From the NCBI GenBank assembly GCA_951217055.1, contig OX578276.1, positions 134,218,587 through 134,282,586 on the forward strand: a stretch of DNA of 64,000 nt. The letters are read 5' to 3'. The notes beneath the pieces were generated by a model, which was not told the origin of the DNA, ran no database searches, and was given only the letters and a program-made list of their open reading frames with translations. Below, one piece after another: positions 18,090 to 62,938 of the stretch (position 1 is the stretch's first letter; the number at the start of each line of letters is the position of its first letter). The position numbers and the translations under genes are program-made. Origin of the DNA: Gerris lacustris. Its lineage: Eukaryota; Arthropoda; Insecta; Hemiptera; Gerridae.

Positions 18090-18935
18090 CTAATTATTAA
18101 AGTTATTAAAGGCTCGCTACACTCGCCTGTTTGCAGCAATATTTATTAAATAAAATAATTGCAGGCTCGCTACGCTCGCCTGTATTACAGCCTTTGTACA
18201 AAATCTTTATTTAATAAGGTTATTGAAGGCTCGCTACGCTCGCCTGTTTGTACTGCATTATTAATTAATTTCTTATAAAAAGTTATTGAAGGCTCGCTAC
18301 GCTCGCCTGTTTGTACTGCATTATTAGTTAATTTATTAAAAAAGTCATTGCAGGCTCGCTACGCTCGCCTGTTTGTACTGCATTATTAATTAATTTCTTA
18401 TAAAAAGTTATTGAAGGCTCGCTACGCTCACCTGTTTGTACTGCATTATTTGTTAATTTCTTATAAAAGGTAATTGCAGGCTCGCTACGCTCGCCTGTTT
18501 GTACTGCATTATTACTTAATATTTATTAAAAAAAAGTCATTGCAGGCTCGCTGCGCTCGCCTGTTTGTACTGCATTATTAATTAATTTGTTGTAAAAAGT
18601 TATTGAAGGCTCGCTACGCTCGCCTGTTTGTACTGCATTATTAATTAATTTCTTATAAAAGGTAATTGCAGGCTCGCTACGCTTGCCTGTCGTTACAGCA
18701 TTGGTAGTTAATATTTATTAAATAAAGTCATTGCAAGCTCGCTACGCTCGCCTGTTTGAACTGCATTATTGGTTAATTTCTTATAAAATGTTATTGCAGG
18801 CTCGCTATATACCTGTTGGTAAGTACTGCATTATTAGTTAATATTTATTAAATAAAATGATTGCAGGCTCGCTCCGCTCGCCTGTTTATACAGCTGTTTT
18901 GAAGATCTTTATTCAACACATATGCAGGCTCGCTG
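18090..18935 (+). repeat. Minisatellite array 1, about 62-bp unit
   Basis: About 14 units of GGCTCGCTACGCTCGCCTGT plus an AT spacer (TTTGTACTGCATTATTA..TTAATTTCTTATAAAAAGTTATTG..). The core holds GCTCGC twice and is strikingly GC- and CpG-rich against AT-rich spacers. Outer units are the most diverged. Confidence 0.92.
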
Positions 18936-19124
18936 CCTAGACAGTAGACAGCCGGGCTTTATCATATTTCCTTGCATTTGTAGACATCTTTATTTTAAAG
19001 TTTTTACAGGCTATCACAGCGAGCCTATTTAATAAATGCATCTAGACATCAATTTGTAGAATAAACAGGCGAACTTATCGAGCCTTGTAAATGCTGTCTA
19101 GCCGGCGAGCGCAGATAGCCTTCT

Positions 19125-19650
19125 AGCTTATTCACGCTTTTCCTACTTTTAAAGACCTTTAAAACAATGTATAACATGCCATGCTGATTATAATATTTTT
19201 TTTAGTTGTCTACCATATTGGCCGCCATCTTCAAAATATCAAGTGTGAAATGTTAATAGTTACATAGTCCTCTTCTACATTTCAAGACCTTTAAATTGAT
19301 ATATAACATGTTATAAGGACTAACATTTTTTGTTTTTTCGTCCAAACATATTGGCCGCCATCTTGAAAATATGAAGTGTCGAAATTAATTCGTTACATAT
19401 CCTTTTCCTTCTTTTGAAGACCTTTAAAACGATGTATAACACATTATGCTGACTAAATATTTATATTTTAGTCGTCCGCCATATTGGCCGCCATCTTGGA
19501 AATTTGAAGTTTGGAATTTAATGCGTTACATATTCTTTTCCTTCTCTTAAAGACCTTTAAAACGATGTATAACACATTATACTGACTAAACATTTTTATT
19601 TTAGTCGTCCGCCATATTGGCCGCCATCTTGGAAATGTTTAGTGTGGAAT
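19125..19650 (+). repeat. 133-bp tandem repeat with GCCGCCATCTTG boxes, array 1
   Basis: Four units of AAGACCTTTAAAACGATGTA .. GTCGTCCGCCATATTG GCCGCCATCTTG. The GCCGCCATCTT box starts near 19221, 19353, 19487 and 19620, a regular period of about 133 bp. A diverged unit without the box lies at about 17885-18010. Array 2 is at about 22365-22890. Confidence 0.88.
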
Positions 19651-20246
19651 TTCCAAAAACTATACAGTTATGACAAATTGTTAGAAGCACCTGTGTGCCA
19701 AATTTCGTTCAAATCGATCAATTTTTACGCCAGTTATCGTTGGACAAACAAACACACAAACACACAAACTTTTCAAATGCCAAGTCTCTGAAATGAAGAA
19801 CTCACTGCGCTCGTTCAATTATCATTATTACTAGTGATGCGCTGCATAAAGAACTCGCGTAGAATTGTGTCCTCATATCAGCCGTACTATGTTTTCAATA
19901 TAACTACCAGGATAATATTTCGGTTAAAACATTAAATATTCTTAATCAACCTGAAAATAGCTTTAAAATTATGTTATGTAATATGCCATATAAGTTTGAT
20001 CTTACTTCTTAACACCCTTATTTTGTTGCAACGCCATATTTGTTGCAAAAGATTTTTGATCATATTTAATATTTATTTCCTACTCTTCAAGACCTTTAAA
20101 CCGATGTATAACATGTCGTAGACTACAATCATATTATTTAAAGTTGTCTGTAATATTGACCGCAATCTTAAATTTAAAGTGTCAAAAATACTCAGATGTT
20201 GTGAAACGAATTTCGTACTAACTCGCTAGTTCTGGATAGGAAAATA

Positions 20247-20825
20247 TTTTATCTACGATTGATAAGAAATATAAACATTATATCTTTGTTTAGATGCGTA
20301 GAAAGTTATTATTTACGTACTTGTATTCGTTGCGCATGCGCGCGTCTCATAGTTCTGAAGTATTCCTCTTCTTTACCACGCTAGCGCGGTAAAGAAGAGG
20401 AATTCTTCAGCTTTACGCACGATTACCGAGTTTGTTTATATTTAACAAAACTAATTTGCTGTTCTTTTATTAAAGTAACTGTTTATATCGAGTTTTTAGT
20501 AAAAAACAATGAGTGAATCAAGTGACATTGACGAAAATGTGGAGAATAATACTCCTCCAGAAATAATTAATTCGACAAAAAATACAGCTCAAGAATTAAT
20601 GTCATCTTTATCAAGAGAGAGATACGAACTTACATACAGCAACTTTATTTTTTTCTGTATTTATTATTTAAATCTAATAATCGTAGATAAAGTACGGTAC
20701 GCAACTCGTGCGAAAACGGCATTTTGCATTGCTCGTGTGGTATTACCACCCTCGCTATCGCTCGGGTGCAAACTCCACACTCGCATGCAAAATGCTACTT
20801 TCCGCACTCGACGCGTAATGTACTA
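20247..20825 (+). mobile_element. Family C composite element, copy 1
   Basis: Starts TTTATCTACGATTG; the inverted match CAATCGTAGATAAA ends at about 20695, followed by a fold-back segment of about 130 bp (GTGCGAAAACGGCATTTTGC against TGCAAAATGCTACTTTCCGC). A hairpin at 20365-20400 (CCTCTTCTTTACC / GGTAAAGAAGAGG) and a GCGCATGCGCGCG island lie upstream of an ATG. Reversed copy at 34383-34949, third copy at 57114-57690. Confidence 0.8.
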
Positions 20826-20841
20826 TTCCTTTCATTTGTAG
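20509..20841 (+). pseudogene. Short ORF of family C, 110 residues
   Basis: Encodes MSESSDIDENVENNTPPEII, then ELMSSLSRERYELTYSNFIF. The first 45-50 residues are recognisably shared by the other two copies (MSDLNDYDE..NTPPEII..SAQNTTNELM..SLSKEKYELAYWKF), each of which is broken: a stop in the 34.6-kb copy, a one-base deletion in the 57.4-kb copy. From about residue 50 the reading frame runs through the TIR and fold-back segment and is not expected to be real protein. The 'S-x-E-x-Y-E-L-A-Y-x-K-F' segment faintly resembles the N-terminal core-binding region of tyrosine recombinases such as Crypton-type proteins; that is only a suggestion. Confidence 0.4.
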
Positions 20842-20844
20842 ATA

Positions 20845-22160
20845 ATCACTAATCATTAAAATTATTAAAGGCTCGCTACACTCGCCTGTTTGCAGCAATA
20901 TTTATTAAATAAAATAATTGCAGGCTCGCTACGCTCGCCTGTTTGTACTGCATTATTTAGTTAATATTTATTTAATAAGGTTATTGCAGGCTCGCTACGC
21001 TCGCTTGTTTGTACTGCATTATTAGTTAATATTTATTAAAAAAAGTCATTGCAGGCTCGCTACGCTCGACTGTTTGTACTGCATTATTAGTTAATATTTA
21101 TTAAAAAAAAGTCATTGCAGGCTCGCTACGCTCTCCTGTTTGTACTGCATTATTTTTTAATTTCTTATAAAAAGTTATTGCAGGCTCGCTACGCTCGCCT
21201 GTTTGGTCTGCGTTATTAGTTAATTTCTTAAAAAAAGTCATTGCAGGCTCGCTACGCTCGCCTGTTTGTACTGCATTATTAGTTAATATTTATTTAATAA
21301 GGTTATTGCAGGCTCGCTACGCTCGCCTGTTTGTACTGCATTATTAGTTAATATTTATTTAATAAGGTTATTGCAGGCTCGCTATGCTCGTCTGTTTGTA
21401 CTGCATTATTAGTTAATATTTATTAAAAAAAAGTCATTGCAGGCTCGCTACGCTCGCCTGTTTGTACTGCATTATTAGTTAATATTTATTGAAAAAAGTC
21501 ATTGCAGAGTCGCTACGCTCGCCTGTTGGTACTGCATTATTAGTTAATTTCTTATAAAAAGTCATTGCAGGCTCGCTACGCTCGCCTGTTTGTACTGCAT
21601 TATTAGTTCATATTTATTAAAAAAAAAGTCATTGCAGGCTCGCTACGCTCGCCTGTTTGTACTGCATTATTAGTTCATATTTATTAAAAAAAAAGTCATT
21701 GCAGGCTCGCTACGCTCGCCTGTTTGTACTGCATTATTTTTTAATTTCTTATAAAAAGTTATTGCAGGCTCGCTACGCTCGCCTCTTTGGTCTGCGTTAT
21801 TAGTTAATTTCTTAAAAAAAGTTATTGCAGGCTCGCTACGCTCGCCAGGTTTTGCAGCCTTTGTACAAACACATTATTTAATAAGATTATTGCAGGCTCG
21901 CTACGCTTGCCTGTTGTTACAGCATTGGTAGTTAATATTTATTAAATAAAGTCATTGCAAGCTCGCTACGCTCGCCTGTTTGAACTACATTATTGGTTAA
22001 TTTCTTATAAAATGTTATTGCAGGCTCGCTACGCTCGCCTGTTGGTACTGCATTATTAGTTAATATTTATTAAATAAAATGATTGCATGCTCGCTACGCT
22101 GGCCTGTTTATACAGCTGTTTTGAAGATCTTTATTTAACACATATGCAGGCTCGCTGCCT
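20845..22160 (+). repeat. Minisatellite array 2, about 62-bp unit
   Basis: About 21 units of the same GGCTCGCTACGCTCGCC core and AT spacer as array 1. Several neighbouring units are identical over their whole length (for example around 21590 and 21660), pointing to recent local amplification. Confidence 0.92.
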
Positions 22161-22364
22161 AGACAGTAGACAGCTGGTCTTTATCATATTTCCTTGCATT
22201 TGTAGACATCTTTATTTTAAAGTTTTTTCAGGCTATCAAAGCAAGCCTATTTAATAAATGCATCTAGACATCAATTTGTAGAATAAACAGGCGAACTTAT
22301 CGAGCCATGTAATGCTGTCTAGCAGGCGAGCGCAGATAGCCTTCTAGCTTATTCACGCTTTTCC

Positions 22365-22890
22365 TACTTTTAAAGACCTTTAAAACGATGTATAACATGC
22401 CATGCTGATTATAATATTTTTTTTAGTTGTCTACCATATTGGCCGCCATCTTCAAAATATCAAGTGTGAAATGTTAATAGTTACATAGTCCTCTTCTACA
22501 TTTCAAGACCTTTAAATTGATATATAACATGTTATAAGGACTAACATTTTTTGCTTTTTCGTCCAAACATTTTGGCCGCCATCTTGAAAATATGAAGTGT
22601 CGAATTTAATTTATTACATATCCTTTTCCTTCTTTTGAAGACCTTTAAAACGATGTATAACACATTATGCTGACTAAATATTTATATTTTAGTCGTCCGC
22701 CATATTGGCCGCCATCTTGGAAATTTGAAGTTTGGAATTTAATGCGTTACATATTCTTTTCCTTCTCTTAAAGACCTTTAAAACGATGTATAACACATTA
22801 TGCTGACTAAACATTTTTATTTTAGTCGTCCGCCATATTGGCCGCCATCTTGGAAATGTTTAGTGTGGAATTTCCAAAAACTATACAGTT
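22365..22890 (+). repeat. 133-bp tandem repeat with GCCGCCATCTTG boxes, array 2
   Basis: Second copy of the four-unit array, nearly identical to array 1. GCCGCCATCTTG is the consensus of the zinc-finger factor YY1 (Pho in flies). Confidence 0.88.
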
Positions 22891-23609: not shown

Positions 23610-24471
23610 ACCTTAAAATGAAAGATGTTATTAATAAATTCCTTGTTAAATTTTTATTAAAATTTCATTAAATAATCACAATATTATAATTTCAAACTTT
23701 ATTAAATCTACAAATAATAACTTAAACAACTTAATAACAATACATGCTAAACAAGGTTTCTAACCATGTAACACTAAATTTAATTGAAATTGGTTTAGGT
23801 ATGACTCATAATCTCGATTATATGAATGAAATATCTAGAGGATCTGGTTTAAGTCGAGTGCTGGGTCGGTAACCTTCGGCACGGCCGTGCTCCTCTCTAA
23901 AAGATCACATTATATTATTTTTGTCACGATGAGGTAATAGTTTTTATTTTAATAATCAAGCAAGGAAACAAGTGAATATTTGATCGAGGATTATTGAAGA
24001 GGCCAAGAGGTAGAAGATTAATTATTATTATCATAACTAAGAGGTTAAAAAGTTAGGAGGAAACCCACTAGAAGTTAAAGCTGACTAGTTCAATGAGAGG
24101 TAAGTGTGAAGTGTGAATCGAGTGGCGTACAATGAACACAGTGTTCTGGCCAAGCCCAGGCCCAGACGCCAGACACAAGTCAAGGTCTAGTCAGTCAGGC
24201 ACTTTCTCAATCTATCCCTTCTCTACCTGCAGCCGACGCTATCTTCTCTCCCTCCATCGTCCCATCTACCCGACCCGAGTCCATCATCACACATGTTTAC
24301 TAACATAACAGGCCTCTCAGTCCCACCTTATCTCGCTCCCCCAGTGAACCTATTTTACTACGTTTTACGTATCACTTATTCTACTGGAAGTTTTCTGAAT
24401 AATTTTTGATCGACTTCTTTAACGCTTTAATTTAGATGTGATAGTGAACAGTGAAAACCTTTATCGACGTC
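23610..24471 (+). other. Upstream region of the hAT-derived gene
   Basis: AT-rich to about 23880, then clearly richer in G+C (24100-24350 includes CCCACCTTATCTCGCTCCCC). No TATA box or initiator could be assigned, but the composition change marks the probable promoter and 5' UTR. The first exon of the opposite-strand ALAD gene could lie in this direction; I did not find it. Confidence 0.4.
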
Positions 24472-26406
24472 ATGTCTTCGGGTCAGTTCGTGGTGGATTC
24501 GAGTCGACACTGCAGGAGGTATTTTAACCCGGAATGGCAGTTTCTTGGATACGTAGAGGAGAACGGCAAAGCGCTATGCGTCCTATGCGGCCAAACCCTG
24601 GTATACCGCTCCTCCAGCGTCAAACGTCACTTCCACTGTAAACACGAGTCTAACTTCAGCAGCGAAGCCGAAAAGTGCGAAGTGATACTAAACGCAATCT
24701 CTTATTTCAACCGTTTCAAAGATCGTAACGACACTGGTACTTGGTACAAGGAGATGCGCGGAGTCAACGGAGTTCAGAAGGGAAATACCACCCTTTTAGG
24801 CTGTGATAAAAAACTCGCAACGGAATGCAGTTTTACCTTGGCTCAGTTCATCGCGAAACGGGGTAAACCTTTTACTGACGGGGAGTATATTAAAGAGGCG
24901 TTCATCTCTTGTTCGGAAACACTATTCTCGGATTTGCCAAACAAAGCGTTAATCATGAATAGGCTGATGTGTATTCCCGCCTCTCCGAAAACAATGGAAG
25001 GTCGTATAACAGAGATGGCGGCGAATATTAGGAGAGAGAGAGCGACAAGCTTGGTGGAATCGCCCGCTTACAGCGTCGCTCTCGTGCTGTCGCGAGACGA
25101 CATCTCACCCGGCACCAATGGTGGTGGTCGCCTCGCTATGGCTATCCGATTTTGTGACAACGACAGCATTTTTGAAGAACTCTGCTACACTACCTCTTTC
25201 GACAGTGAACCTACAAGTCAAGAAGTTTTATCCTTCGTTAAAGAAAGCTTCGAAAAAAACGAAATATCTCCTTCTAAAGTTTTCTCTTTCGTCACCGACA
25301 ACGCTCCTGTTTTCATTGACCCGGACTGCGGCTTTCTGACTCTTTTTGAAGAGGATTTAGCTCGTACCGTCGTAAAGTATCACTGCTTGCTCGACTGGAA
25401 CCGGCTAACGTACGACGTGTCTGAAGGCAATTTAAATATCGTCATGAACGCCGTCGGTAAAATAATCAATTTTATAATTTCAAATTCTAGCACGATCGAA
25501 ACAAGGTTTCAACCTTACGTCGACGAAATAAAACGCACGCCCGTCTCGGGTATCGCCTTGATAGGTGGGGGCCAGGTCTTGAAGATTTTCGTCAGTTGCT
25601 TGGACGTCGTTAAGAACTTCGTTTTTAACTCGTTTGATGAAAAGATTTTCCCGGAACTGAAGGACTCAGTTTGGTTGAATTTCCTTATGTACCTGGTGGA
25701 CATAGTAGAACATCTTAGTGAGTTACAGCAGAGCCTTGAAGGTCAGGGCGGGACAGTCTTGGACCTCTTCGAAGCCTGGAGAGCTTTTATAGCTAAAATA
25801 AAGCTGATGATCCTCGACATCTCGTCCAGTACTTTTAGCTACTTCCCACATCTCAAGGAGTGCCACACTCGCTACAATGTTGCTTTAGGCGAATGTCTCA
25901 AATACACAGAAGTTCTCATGCACGAGTTTTCAGAACGACTAGATAACCTGTACGCTTACGAACAACTTCTTCCCTTCATGATCGACCCCCAAGGCTTCGA
26001 GGTATGTCAAATAGACCTGTCCCTCTTTCCCATGATAATCGTCAAGGGATTTGAAGAACAGTTTGTTGCCTTCAAAACTTTCAAGTTGATACAAGTTAAA
26101 TTCTCGGAGCTGAAGAGGAATCTAAAGAAAGAAGGTATAAATAGAGGTGCTCAAATTCTCGAGTGTTGGAATTCGGTTCCAGATAAGTTTGTTAGCGTGA
26201 AAAGAATAGCCTTCACTCTTATCTCCGCGTTCGGTTCAGTAATTCTTAATAAGGACATCCGAAAAGTGATAAATTCACCAACCAACCCTCTTTGTAGTCG
26301 CCTAACGCCAAAGAACTCCGATGCCTGCGCACAACTCAAAATAACCAACTACGTACCTGATATTAAGAAACTATGCATGAGAAAACAGGGTCAGGGATCC
26401 CACTAA
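24472..26406 (+). CDS. BED-finger hAT-like protein, probable domesticated transposase
   Basis: 644 residues in one uninterrupted frame from ATG 24472 (MSSGQFVVDS; upstream in-frame codons lack ATG). Residues 20-60: BED-type finger with C36-x2-C39 and H53-x4-H58. Then a hAT core of the GTF2IRD2/FAM200/SCAND3/ZBED5-like group: FVTDNAPVFIDPDCGFLTLF, YHCLLDWNRL, GGGQVLKIF, FLMYLVDIVEHLSELQQSLEG, and the C-terminal ITNYVPDIKKLCMRKQGQ typical of that group. By alignment from memory of the family pattern, the first catalytic Asp reads Ser (VALVLSRDDIS), R-W is gone, and the C-terminal 'L-C-E' reads LNK. Codon use is G+C-richer than the flanks. No flanking TIRs were found. Likely nuclear and DNA-binding; function unknown. 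Confidence 0.82.
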   Translation: MSSGQFVVDSSRHCRRYFNPEWQFLGYVEENGKALCVLCGQTLVYRSSSVKRHFHCKHESNFSSEAEKCEVILNAISYFNRFKDRNDTGTWYKEMRGVNGVQKGNTTLLGCDKKLATECSFTLAQFIAKRGKPFTDGEYIKEAFISCSETLFSDLPNKALIMNRLMCIPASPKTMEGRITEMAANIRRERATSLVESPAYSVALVLSRDDISPGTNGGGRLAMAIRFCDNDSIFEELCYTTSFDSEPTSQEVLSFVKESFEKNEISPSKVFSFVTDNAPVFIDPDCGFLTLFEEDLARTVVKYHCLLDWNRLTYDVSEGNLNIVMNAVGKIINFIISNSSTIETRFQPYVDEIKRTPVSGIALIGGGQVLKIFVSCLDVVKNFVFNSFDEKIFPELKDSVWLNFLMYLVDIVEHLSELQQSLEGQGGTVLDLFEAWRAFIAKIKLMILDISSSTFSYFPHLKECHTRYNVALGECLKYTEVLMHEFSERLDNLYAYEQLLPFMIDPQGFEVCQIDLSLFPMIIVKGFEEQFVAFKTFKLIQVKFSELKRNLKKEGINRGAQILECWNSVPDKFVSVKRIAFTLISAFGSVILNKDIRKVINSPTNPLCSRLTPKNSDACAQLKITNYVPDIKKLCMRKQGQGSH

Positions 26407-54560: not shown

Positions 54561-54635
54561 TATACTAAGAATTTCTGGTTGTACTAATTTTGGTATATTG
54601 AACATCCTGCATATTATAGTATATATATTTATATA

Positions 54636-54752
<117 letters not shown>

Positions 54753-54904
54753 TAAATGTAATACCGTGTTTTTGCACACTGCAATAGGCTACACAATTTG
54801 CGAGAGACACCAAGGGATGTGCCACGCAAGCGTGGCCCATAGGAACTTTTCCAACATCAGACATCGCGTCATTAAGATGTTGGCTCGGCATACGCCATGT
54901 CCTT

Positions 54905-54946
54905 CATCGTTTCGTCGCGTCCGACTCATCAGGGGCCCGACGATGC
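54905..54946 (-). ncRNA. Hammerhead ribozyme motif, minus strand
   Basis: Mirror copy: read on the minus strand, GCATCG (54946-54941), GTC, GGGCCC (54938-54933), CTGATGA (54932-54926), stem II GTCG/CGAC, GAAA (54913-54910), CGATG (54909-54905). One stem III pair is lost compared with the plus-strand motif; the core is intact. Confidence 0.78.
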
Positions 54947-55130
54947 CCACCCAACTCTGGACCTATACTAGATCAAGAATTGTGTAGCCTATTGCAGTGT
55001 GCAAAAACACGGTATTACATTTATGATGTGTTTTGCCAGCCTAGCAAAAATGGCGGTATGAGATCAAGTTCGTCTCTGATAAGTCCTATATCCGATCTTC
55101 TTGATCTAGTATAGGTCCAGAGTTGGGTGG

Positions 55131-55173
55131 GCATCGTCGGGCCCCTGATGAGTCGGACGCGACGAAACGATGC
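55131..55173 (+). ncRNA. Hammerhead ribozyme motif, plus strand
   Basis: Stem III GCATCG (55131-55136), cleavage triplet GTC (ending 55138), stem I zone GGGCCC (55139-55144), core CTGATGA (55145-55151), stem II GTCG-GACG-CGAC (55152-55163), core GAAA (55164-55167), stem III return CGATGC (55168-55173). All core nucleotides of the hammerhead consensus are present and stems II and III pair fully. Stem I is only a six-base palindrome with no loop, so it cannot close on itself; two copies could pair with each other through it. Confidence 0.8.
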
Positions 55174-55281
55174 AGGACATGGCGTATGCCGAGCCAACAT
55201 CTTAATGACGCAATGTCTGATGTTGGAACAGTTCCTATGGGTCACGCTTGCGTGGCACATCCCTTGGTGTCGCTCGCAAAT

Positions 55282-55286
<5 letters not shown>

Positions 55287-55346
<60 letters not shown>
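55287..55346. repeat. (TA)n microsatellite, right flank of the ribozyme block
   Basis: About 29 TA units directly after the right arm. Confidence 0.95.
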
Positions 55347-55347
<1 letters not shown>

Positions 55348-55789
55348 ATATATATGTAACGCAGACACCTTTTCTGTGTAGTCAATTAAGACTTGCAGGT
55401 TGTACTAATTTTAGTATATTGAAGCATAATGCATATTATATAATATATAAGTCATCTCAGATAACGAGTTTGTTAGTTTTATAAAAAAACTATTTTATTT
55501 AACATACAATTATATAATATTACGATTATTATTGAAGTTTTATAAAATAGCTAAAACAATTGAATTTTACTTTACTTAAACTCTGTTTAATTTAAAATTG
55601 AAATTAAGAATTTGAATTTAGTAAAGGACAAACTTCTTACATTATAAAACGAATAGCAAACCGACATAGGTACTGCCTCTGAATGGAAATTAAGAAAGGA
55701 TGTAAGGTCGAAAAAGTCAGGAGCTTATATACTACCAGGCGTGCTGATCTTGCAGGAAAAATGCGGACTGTAAGAACAGCGTCTATAAC

Positions 55790-62198: not shown

Positions 62199-62938
62199 AA
62201 ATTCAATTTTTAAGTTTTTGGTAGTTTTCATACTACGGAAAGTTAAATTTTAATTTAAATCAAATTATAATTATTATTAACTACGGGAAACAGACAGTGA
62301 AAAATACACTCCTGTGCCGGGATTTGAACCACGGGCCTCTATATTTCCAGTATAGCGCTCTTCCATCTAAGCTACGCAGGAGAATGATTTTTCACTACCG
62401 TAATCGATAACTAGTCCCGAATCCAAGCTTTCAATATTCATATACATTTAGACAGTCAATATTTATGACATTAGAACTAAATCAAGAATTAACGCTTATA
62501 ATTAATTATACACTCCTTATAAATAAGGAGTGTATTTTTCACTGTCTGTTTCCCGTAGTTAATAATAATTATAATTTGATTTAAATTAAAATGTAACTTT
62601 CCGTAGTATGAAAACTACCAAAAACTTAAAAATTGAATTTCGAATTGATTGTACAAGGTACAGGTACTAATTGAGTACTTTATAATTATAAGCGTTAATT
62701 CTTGATTTAGTTCTAATGTCATAAATATTGACTGTCTAAATGTATATGAATATTGAAAGCTTGGATTCGGGACTAGTTATCGATTACGGTAGTGAAAAAT
62801 CATTCTCCTGCGTGGCTTAGATGGAAGAGCGCTATACTGGAAATATAGAGGCCCGTGGTTCAAATCCCGGCACAGGAGTGTATTTTTCACTGTCTGTTTC
62901 CCGTAGTTAATAATAATTATAATTTGATTTAAATTAAA
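62199..62938. mobile_element. Composite inverted tRNA-SINE insertion
   Basis: Bounded by the direct repeat ATGACCTTTTTC (62187-62198 and 62939-62950) inside the LINE. Contains a reverse tRNA-SINE (about 62245-62520) facing a forward one (about 62650-62938), with a further forward tail (62526-62642) that is the complement of 62198-62310. The tRNA-like part at 62806-62880 has GTGGCTTAGATGGAAGAGC (A box), an anticodon-stem-like CTATACTGGAAATATAG, and GGTTCAAATCC (B box). Confidence 0.85.
62806..62880 (+). repeat. tRNA-like head of the SINE, forward copy
   Basis: Folds partly as a tRNA: CTCCTG..CAGGAG acceptor pairing, a D-arm-like segment, and a five-pair anticodon stem CTATA/TATAG around CTGGAAA (anticodon would be GGA). 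The T stem is weak. A mirror copy lies at about 62305-62385. Read as a SINE head, not a tRNA gene, because it recurs with the same non-tRNA tail (TTTTTCACTGTCTGTTTCCC). Confidence 0.7.

Follow-up and report, generated by a model that had tools for sequence, protein, structure and literature searches.

A dispersed 302-nt probable hammerhead retrozyme of Gerris lacustris and the Penelope-like pattern of its insertion ends

Non-LTR retrozymes of animals, as characterized in the accessible portions of Cervera and de la Pena 2020 (PMC7229834), consist of non-coding tandem monomers of ~300 nt with one hammerhead ribozyme each and have a GC content below 50%, many dispersed copies and target duplications, features in which the family reported here is alike. 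The same portions describe type I hammerheads in these elements, whereas the Rfam fit of the present family is type III and its stem I is a loop-less palindrome. The main text of PMC7229834 contains neither the word 'inverted' nor the word 'tail', so that the two-site outward structure described below is seemingly not covered there, and in the part of the open-access literature available to us no description of a stem I palindrome or of Penelope-type ends in retrozymes was found.

Penelope-like elements resemble the family in another respect, as the available sections of PMC3846280 and PMC11167929 report inverted outward copies at AT-rich sites, with a tail of ~30–40 nt at one end and duplications of 8–10 bp. 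According to the former these elements form inverted pseudo-LTRs, and the tail at one inverted end is optional (PMC3846280). According to the latter, both strands of AT-rich DNA are cut and then extended by the Anolis Penelope enzyme, which has two adjacent internal start sites with the tail lying between them, and mutation of the hammerhead left Penelope insertion in vitro unchanged (PMC11167929). Penelope elements have been called 'likely candidates' for moving animal retrozymes in a passage of PMC7761336. The family differs from Penelope-like elements in that it lacks an open reading frame for reverse transcriptase and GIY-YIG and has no sequence likeness to the sampled families.

Two further systems are comparable at the ribozyme level. 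In the dimeric hammerheads of newts, ASBVd and Penelope elements, as set out in excerpts of PMC3088659 and PMC7761336, a weak stem is likewise completed by a palindrome common to two molecules, but that palindrome is stem/loop III and here it is stem I. The LTR-bearing hammerhead system shares the Rfam type III motif and the circular-RNA logic, yet it has LTRs of ~350 bp, 4-bp target duplications and 600–1000 bp between hammerheads, in comparison to 302-nt units and longer duplications here.

The locus under study lies in a 64,000-nucleotide stretch of the G. lacustris genome (assembly GCA_951217055.1, contig OX578276.1, positions 134,218,587 to 134,282,586; hereafter the window). We interpret it as one insertion of a 302-nt animal retrozyme for which a Penelope-like enzyme acting in trans would have used circular or multimeric RNA as template and whose hammerhead would cut in multimers only, a reading to which we assign a probability of roughly three in four.

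Structure of the window copy

The original prediction had proposed two oppositely oriented hammerheads within a (TA)n-flanked nested inverted repeat with arms of about 188 bp. An Rfam scan run with an E-value threshold (positions 54740-55300, 561 bases, both strands, 4227 families) matched Hammerhead_3 (RF00008) at 55131-55173 on the plus strand (42.6 bits, E 5.5e-8) and at 54904-54946 on the minus strand (40.0 bits, E 2.9e-7), values at which a chance match was rejected, and the two hammerhead motifs are confirmed with all core parts present. The covariance-model check proposed with the prediction held in that Hammerhead_3 matches both strands and fell short in that neither score reaches the gathering score of 48.5, for which reason the default Rfam scan of the window, using the gathering score, lists no hammerhead. 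The top Rfam match of the same region, MIR4371, is the long hairpin itself. The window hammerhead core is complete (stem III GCATCGT/ACGATGC, GTC, CTGATGA, stem II GTCG-GACG-CGAC and GAAA), with one end pair of stem III broken in the minus-strand copy, and stem I, which the original prediction did not include, is GGGCCC without a loop. The inverted arms (54791-54979 and 55098-55286) measure 189 nt at 97% complementarity, in agreement with the length expected, and the 'nested' part corresponds to a perfect 50-nt inverted repeat at 54749-54798 and 54978-55027. The features are as follows, with the basis of each in brackets.

54658-54750, no strand: left (TA)n target tract (repeat finding)
54751-54979, minus strand: left arm, with the retrozyme sense on the minus strand, from ~m262 round to m185-191, outer end at site B (alignment)
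54904-54946, minus strand: hammerhead copy, predicted to be cut after base 54939 (Rfam; cut site by consensus)
54978-55286, plus strand: right arm in retrozyme sense, from ~m142 round to m149, 310 alignment columns, outer end at site A (alignment)
54978-54979, no strand: junction of the outward-facing arms, whose alignments overlap by 2 nt (alignment)
54987-55027, plus strand: 41-nt stretch between the fixed end sites A (m150) and B (m191), corresponding to the Penelope 'tail' and predicted to form the hairpin GTGT-GCAAAA-ACAC (end sites, folding)
55131-55173, plus strand: hammerhead copy, predicted to be cut after base 55138 (Rfam; cut site by consensus)
55139-55144, plus strand: GGGCCC, a palindromic stem I without a loop, for which pairing is predicted only with the identical hexamer of another unit (folding)
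55288-55355, no strand: right (TA)n target tract (repeat finding)

In this list m1 is the base of the unit that follows the predicted cut. Outside both (TA)n tracts, a 63-bp direct repeat (54566-54627 and 55387-55449, 86%) brackets the entire insertion and is either an older duplication or a piece of another repeat.

The retrozyme family and its insertion ends

The genome of the window comprises 937 Mb in 69 contigs. A query with the 281-bp block containing both arms gave 832 first-look candidates and a query with one unit gave 1749, the best 40 of each being scored. The search for further copies that had been suggested for this locus, carried out with the 281-bp block, recovered a dispersed family that includes head-to-tail tandem arrays. 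Monomer runs reach nearly eight units, and in one array (L043) seven consecutive units are each exactly 302 nt long. The monomer has a GC content of 49.3% and is non-coding, its longest stop-free run being 82 codons, and as in the criteria for animal non-LTR retrozymes the family shows a non-coding tandem monomer of ~150–450 bp, GC below 50% and no protein. By eye, variants in units 1–7 of L043 recur every third unit (2/5, 3/6, 4/7), a period that points either to a trimeric template or to a higher-order repeat of three units; CAAA replaces GAAA in units 4, 5 and 7 of this array.

The retrozyme family is numerous, dispersed and recently active, and it is too young for a covariation test. At L094, with arms of 2150 and 2362 nt and ends at B and A, 12 of 13 full units are identical (7/7 plus, 5/6 minus), and the commonest unit of L095 (5/7 plus, 3/3 minus) is the same as that of L094. 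The identical units of L094 suggest that one small circular RNA template was copied round repeatedly in rolling-circle fashion; alternatively, they could derive from a multimeric RNA template or, between both arms, from gene conversion. Divergence between arms was 2.4% per site within one insertion in comparison to 4.6% between insertions, and arms of the same insertion were closer to each other than to arms of others in 27 of the 31 loci compared, loci with fewer than 80 positions common to both arms being omitted. An exact 24-base retrozyme pattern gave 0 matches in viral contigs.

Insertion anatomy was read at 42 loci, made up of 39 from the both-arm query, the window copy, and L094 and L095, which were chosen non-randomly from the one-unit query for their long arrays. 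Among these 42 loci, in which the both-arm query inflates the share of inverted copies, 32 have a minus arm on the left and a plus arm on the right, so that both sense 3' sides point outward, four are plus only, four minus only and two more complex, and the plain inward arrangement occurs in 0 of the 42. The one-unit query cannot favour inversions, and among the matches listed for its best 40 loci at least 17 were outward, 16 plus only, 7 minus only and 0 inward. The arms meet at a junction with a short overlap or a short insert, in tail-out orientation.

Outward ends were counted after pieces lying 150 nt or more from the main block of a locus had been dropped. The 74 ends obtained fall at site A (m146-151) in 31 cases, at site B (m184-194) in 27 and elsewhere in 16, so that 58 of the 74 lie at one or other of two sites 41–44 nt apart. 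Among the 32 two-arm insertions, 17 have A/B ends, one A/A, one B/B and 13 at least one end elsewhere; where both ends are at fixed sites, 17 of 19 insertions use one of each (P 3.6e-4 against 1/2). Five further loci from the one-unit query that show both ends comprise four A/B and one B/B.

Insertion flanks are 86% A+T versus 65% farther out, and a (TA)8 or longer tract within 80 nt is found on both sides at 13 of the 42 loci, on one side at 14 and on neither at 15. Exact target duplications of 11–13 bp occur at L011, L015, L027, L041 and L044, at sites that are not plain microsatellite. A shared flank word of at least 6 was absent from 10 of 40 loci, and many other loci lie in plain TA repeats where duplications cannot be told. 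The mirror image of the arms fits priming on both target strands. Overall, the retrozyme ends follow the Penelope-like pattern with three exceptions, namely the spacing of 41–44 nt, the 16 of 74 ends lying elsewhere and the duplications that are clear in some loci only, and the genome copies together with the insertion ends support the original proposal of a non-autonomous form of a retrozyme or Penelope-type element.

Penelope-like elements of the same genome and a proposed route of insertion

A GIY-YIG profile search of the genome returned 1680 candidates, of which the best 150 were scored; none of these 150 lies in the window. Two Penelope-like frames were tested, one containing RVT_1 and GIY-YIG and the other GIY-YIG alone at the threshold used, and among the best 150 open frames reach 900 codons from stop to stop. 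Neighbouring GIY-YIG matches within 8 kb, again among the best 150 of 1680, formed 16 outward, 0 inward and 4 tandem pairs. The Penelope families have two alternative 3' ends ~35–40 nt apart, in comparison to the 41–44 nt between the retrozyme sites. Eight outward Penelope pairs were inspected, and all six that are readable at both ends (four by alignment to other copies, two by eye from the flanking duplication and tail motif) combine one near-site with one far-site end; the remaining two comprise one pair truncated at one end and one unreadable pair.

Sequence likeness between the retrozyme and Penelope was absent from six aligned families and from the further 3' ends sampled among the 1680 candidates. 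In all six aligned families ACCC...GACC precedes and AGGG(G)AC follows the near start site; these strings could pair, placing the Penelope start site in a loop, and they were not seen in the 115 nt round retrozyme site A. A search for Rfam hammerheads at 11 of 29 Penelope loci gave none up to E 1. Upstream of the start sites at L096, L099, L050 and other Penelope 3' ends is a string GGC-CTGAAGA-stem-GAAATATAGCC, degenerate in other families, which we take by eye to be hammerhead-like on the model of minimal Penelope hammerheads.

In the alternative that survives best, a LINE-type retrotransposon would have moved the retrozyme by ordinary twin priming without Penelope, and we consider this improbable. 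Twin priming likewise yields inverted copies, and the window holds a LINE-like endonuclease piece (PF14529, E 8.6e-6, just below the cut-off) whose adjoining frames look by eye like reverse transcriptase. However, two fixed start sites, mostly one per target strand, together with outward pairs are the pattern of this genome's own Penelope copies, and we know of no LINE with two fixed start sites, one per target strand. An internal start is moreover described, in the available sections of PMC11167929, as unique to Penelope elements.

Spread at the DNA level, as a satellite or fold-back repeat in (TA)n with the hammerhead as a relic, would account for the tandem arrays, the inverted arms and the microsatellite sites, but the fixed sense ends, the target duplications outside plain microsatellites and the greater closeness of arms within insertions argue against it, and we regard this explanation as very unlikely.

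The palindromic stem I and a proposed cycle

Of 78 copies, 71 have GGGCCC as stem I, 75 an intact CTGATGA and 73 an intact GAAA. The hammerhead is only moderately more conserved than the rest of the unit, ranking 23rd among 302 circular windows. Rfam fits the motif as type III; between tandem units its parts are laid out as in type I, the loop of helix III being long. A genome search with RF00163 gave 0 matches, but its 14 controls likewise gave 0.

Since a GGGCCC palindrome without a loop can form stem I only between two units, cleavage by the hammerhead is predicted to require the pairing of two units. The unconstrained minimum free energy fold of the consensus unit with 60 nt of the next is a hammerhead in which stem I is GGGCCC paired to the GGGCCC of the next unit. 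Folding of a 337-nt RNA gave a stem I probability of ~0.97 and a stem III probability of 0.64–0.77, while a 602-nt tandem context counts against the prediction, stem I falling to 0.25 and stem III to ~0.2. The L094 unit is similarly divided, with a stem I probability of 0.96 with 35 extra bases and 0.07 with 100, and with a minimum free energy fold that lacks the whole hammerhead and also speaks against it. In the 302-nt circle the sole possible stem I pair (G1.1-C2.1) has a probability of 0, and the circle is weakly more stable than its shuffles (z -1.8; 9 of 200 equally stable). When random 6-mers replaced GGGCCC in the consensus unit, 0 of 100 gave the hammerhead fold. Among the 20 orders of the six letters only GGGCCC and CGGCCG gave it and six other palindromes failed, indicating that a palindrome alone (two of eight palindromic orders) is insufficient.

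It could be argued that the hammerhead is a type III ribozyme that works without a second unit and has a stem I of one pair, and the Rfam model that fits is indeed type III. We hold this to be most doubtful, as GGGCCC leaves about one pair and a four-base loop, and folding assigns G1.1-C2.1 a probability of 0 both in the circle and in a 63-nt construct, with the other hammerhead helices at 0.04 or below in the latter.

The functional part of the original prediction, that the mirror layout allows one ribozyme to be expressed from either strand, was not supported. The outward mirror, which is what priming on both target strands would give, recurs in 32 of the 42 loci of the enriched sample and in at least 17 of the best 40 of the one-unit query. 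No hammerhead core is present in the antisense of the consensus monomer, and stem I of each window hammerhead cannot close on itself. The arms that contain the plus and minus hammerheads of the window copy pair along nearly their full length, and its transcript is predicted to fold as one long hairpin that buries the ribozyme. The mirror arrangement is an integration scar and not a design for two ribozymes, and the window copy is probably a dead end. An agent of the viroid-like or delta-like kind, a circular RNA copied into the genome with ribozymes on both strands, would match the window copy and the genomic and antigenomic type III hammerheads reported, in the accessible text of PMC7936874, for HDV-like RNAs of toad and termite, but it is the least credible of the explanations, given the consensus antisense without a hammerhead core, the longest stop-free run of 82 codons and a second window ribozyme that comes from the inverted arm.

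For the retrozyme that we favour, moved by a Penelope-like enzyme, we propose the following cycle. Tandem copies would be transcribed to multimeric RNA, in which the GGGCCC of two units, neighbouring or separate, would pair as stem I, and the predicted cut after GTC would release 302-nt units. A unit may then close to a circle, lose stem I and escape recutting, with which the folding agrees. A Penelope-like reverse transcriptase/endonuclease supplied in trans would cut both strands of AT-rich DNA, with priming on the RNA at two sites 41–44 nt apart, one per target strand, as the observed ends suggest. Each primer would copy round the template, often for more than one turn, and the two cDNAs would meet tail-out; the resulting structures are those observed, and the order of events is the one that we propose.

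At somewhat less than even odds, we tentatively suggest that this is an active retrozyme with a new hammerhead switch, in which a loop-less palindromic stem I formed between units only would let multimers be cut and circles be spared, and in which a Penelope enzyme would copy the circle from both cut strands at once, with one start site per strand and up to ~eight turns per side. Such a palindrome, if true, would be a second solution to cutting multimers without recutting circles. As the insertion ends carry the Penelope signature and the genome contains long open Penelope frames as well as very young retrozyme copies, both the proposed partnership and the use of a single start site on each strand are directly testable.

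Elsewhere in the window, two tRNA-Ser (GGA) genes (62309-62381 and 62806-62878) lie in opposite orientation ~425 bp apart, and a 652-aa open frame at 24448-26406 in a GC-rich stretch has a weak zinc-finger match only (PF18658, below the cut-off). Additionally, positions 18138-22873 contain a duplicated pair, made up of two blocks of 63–65-bp tandem repeats with a 133-bp tandem repeat after each block.
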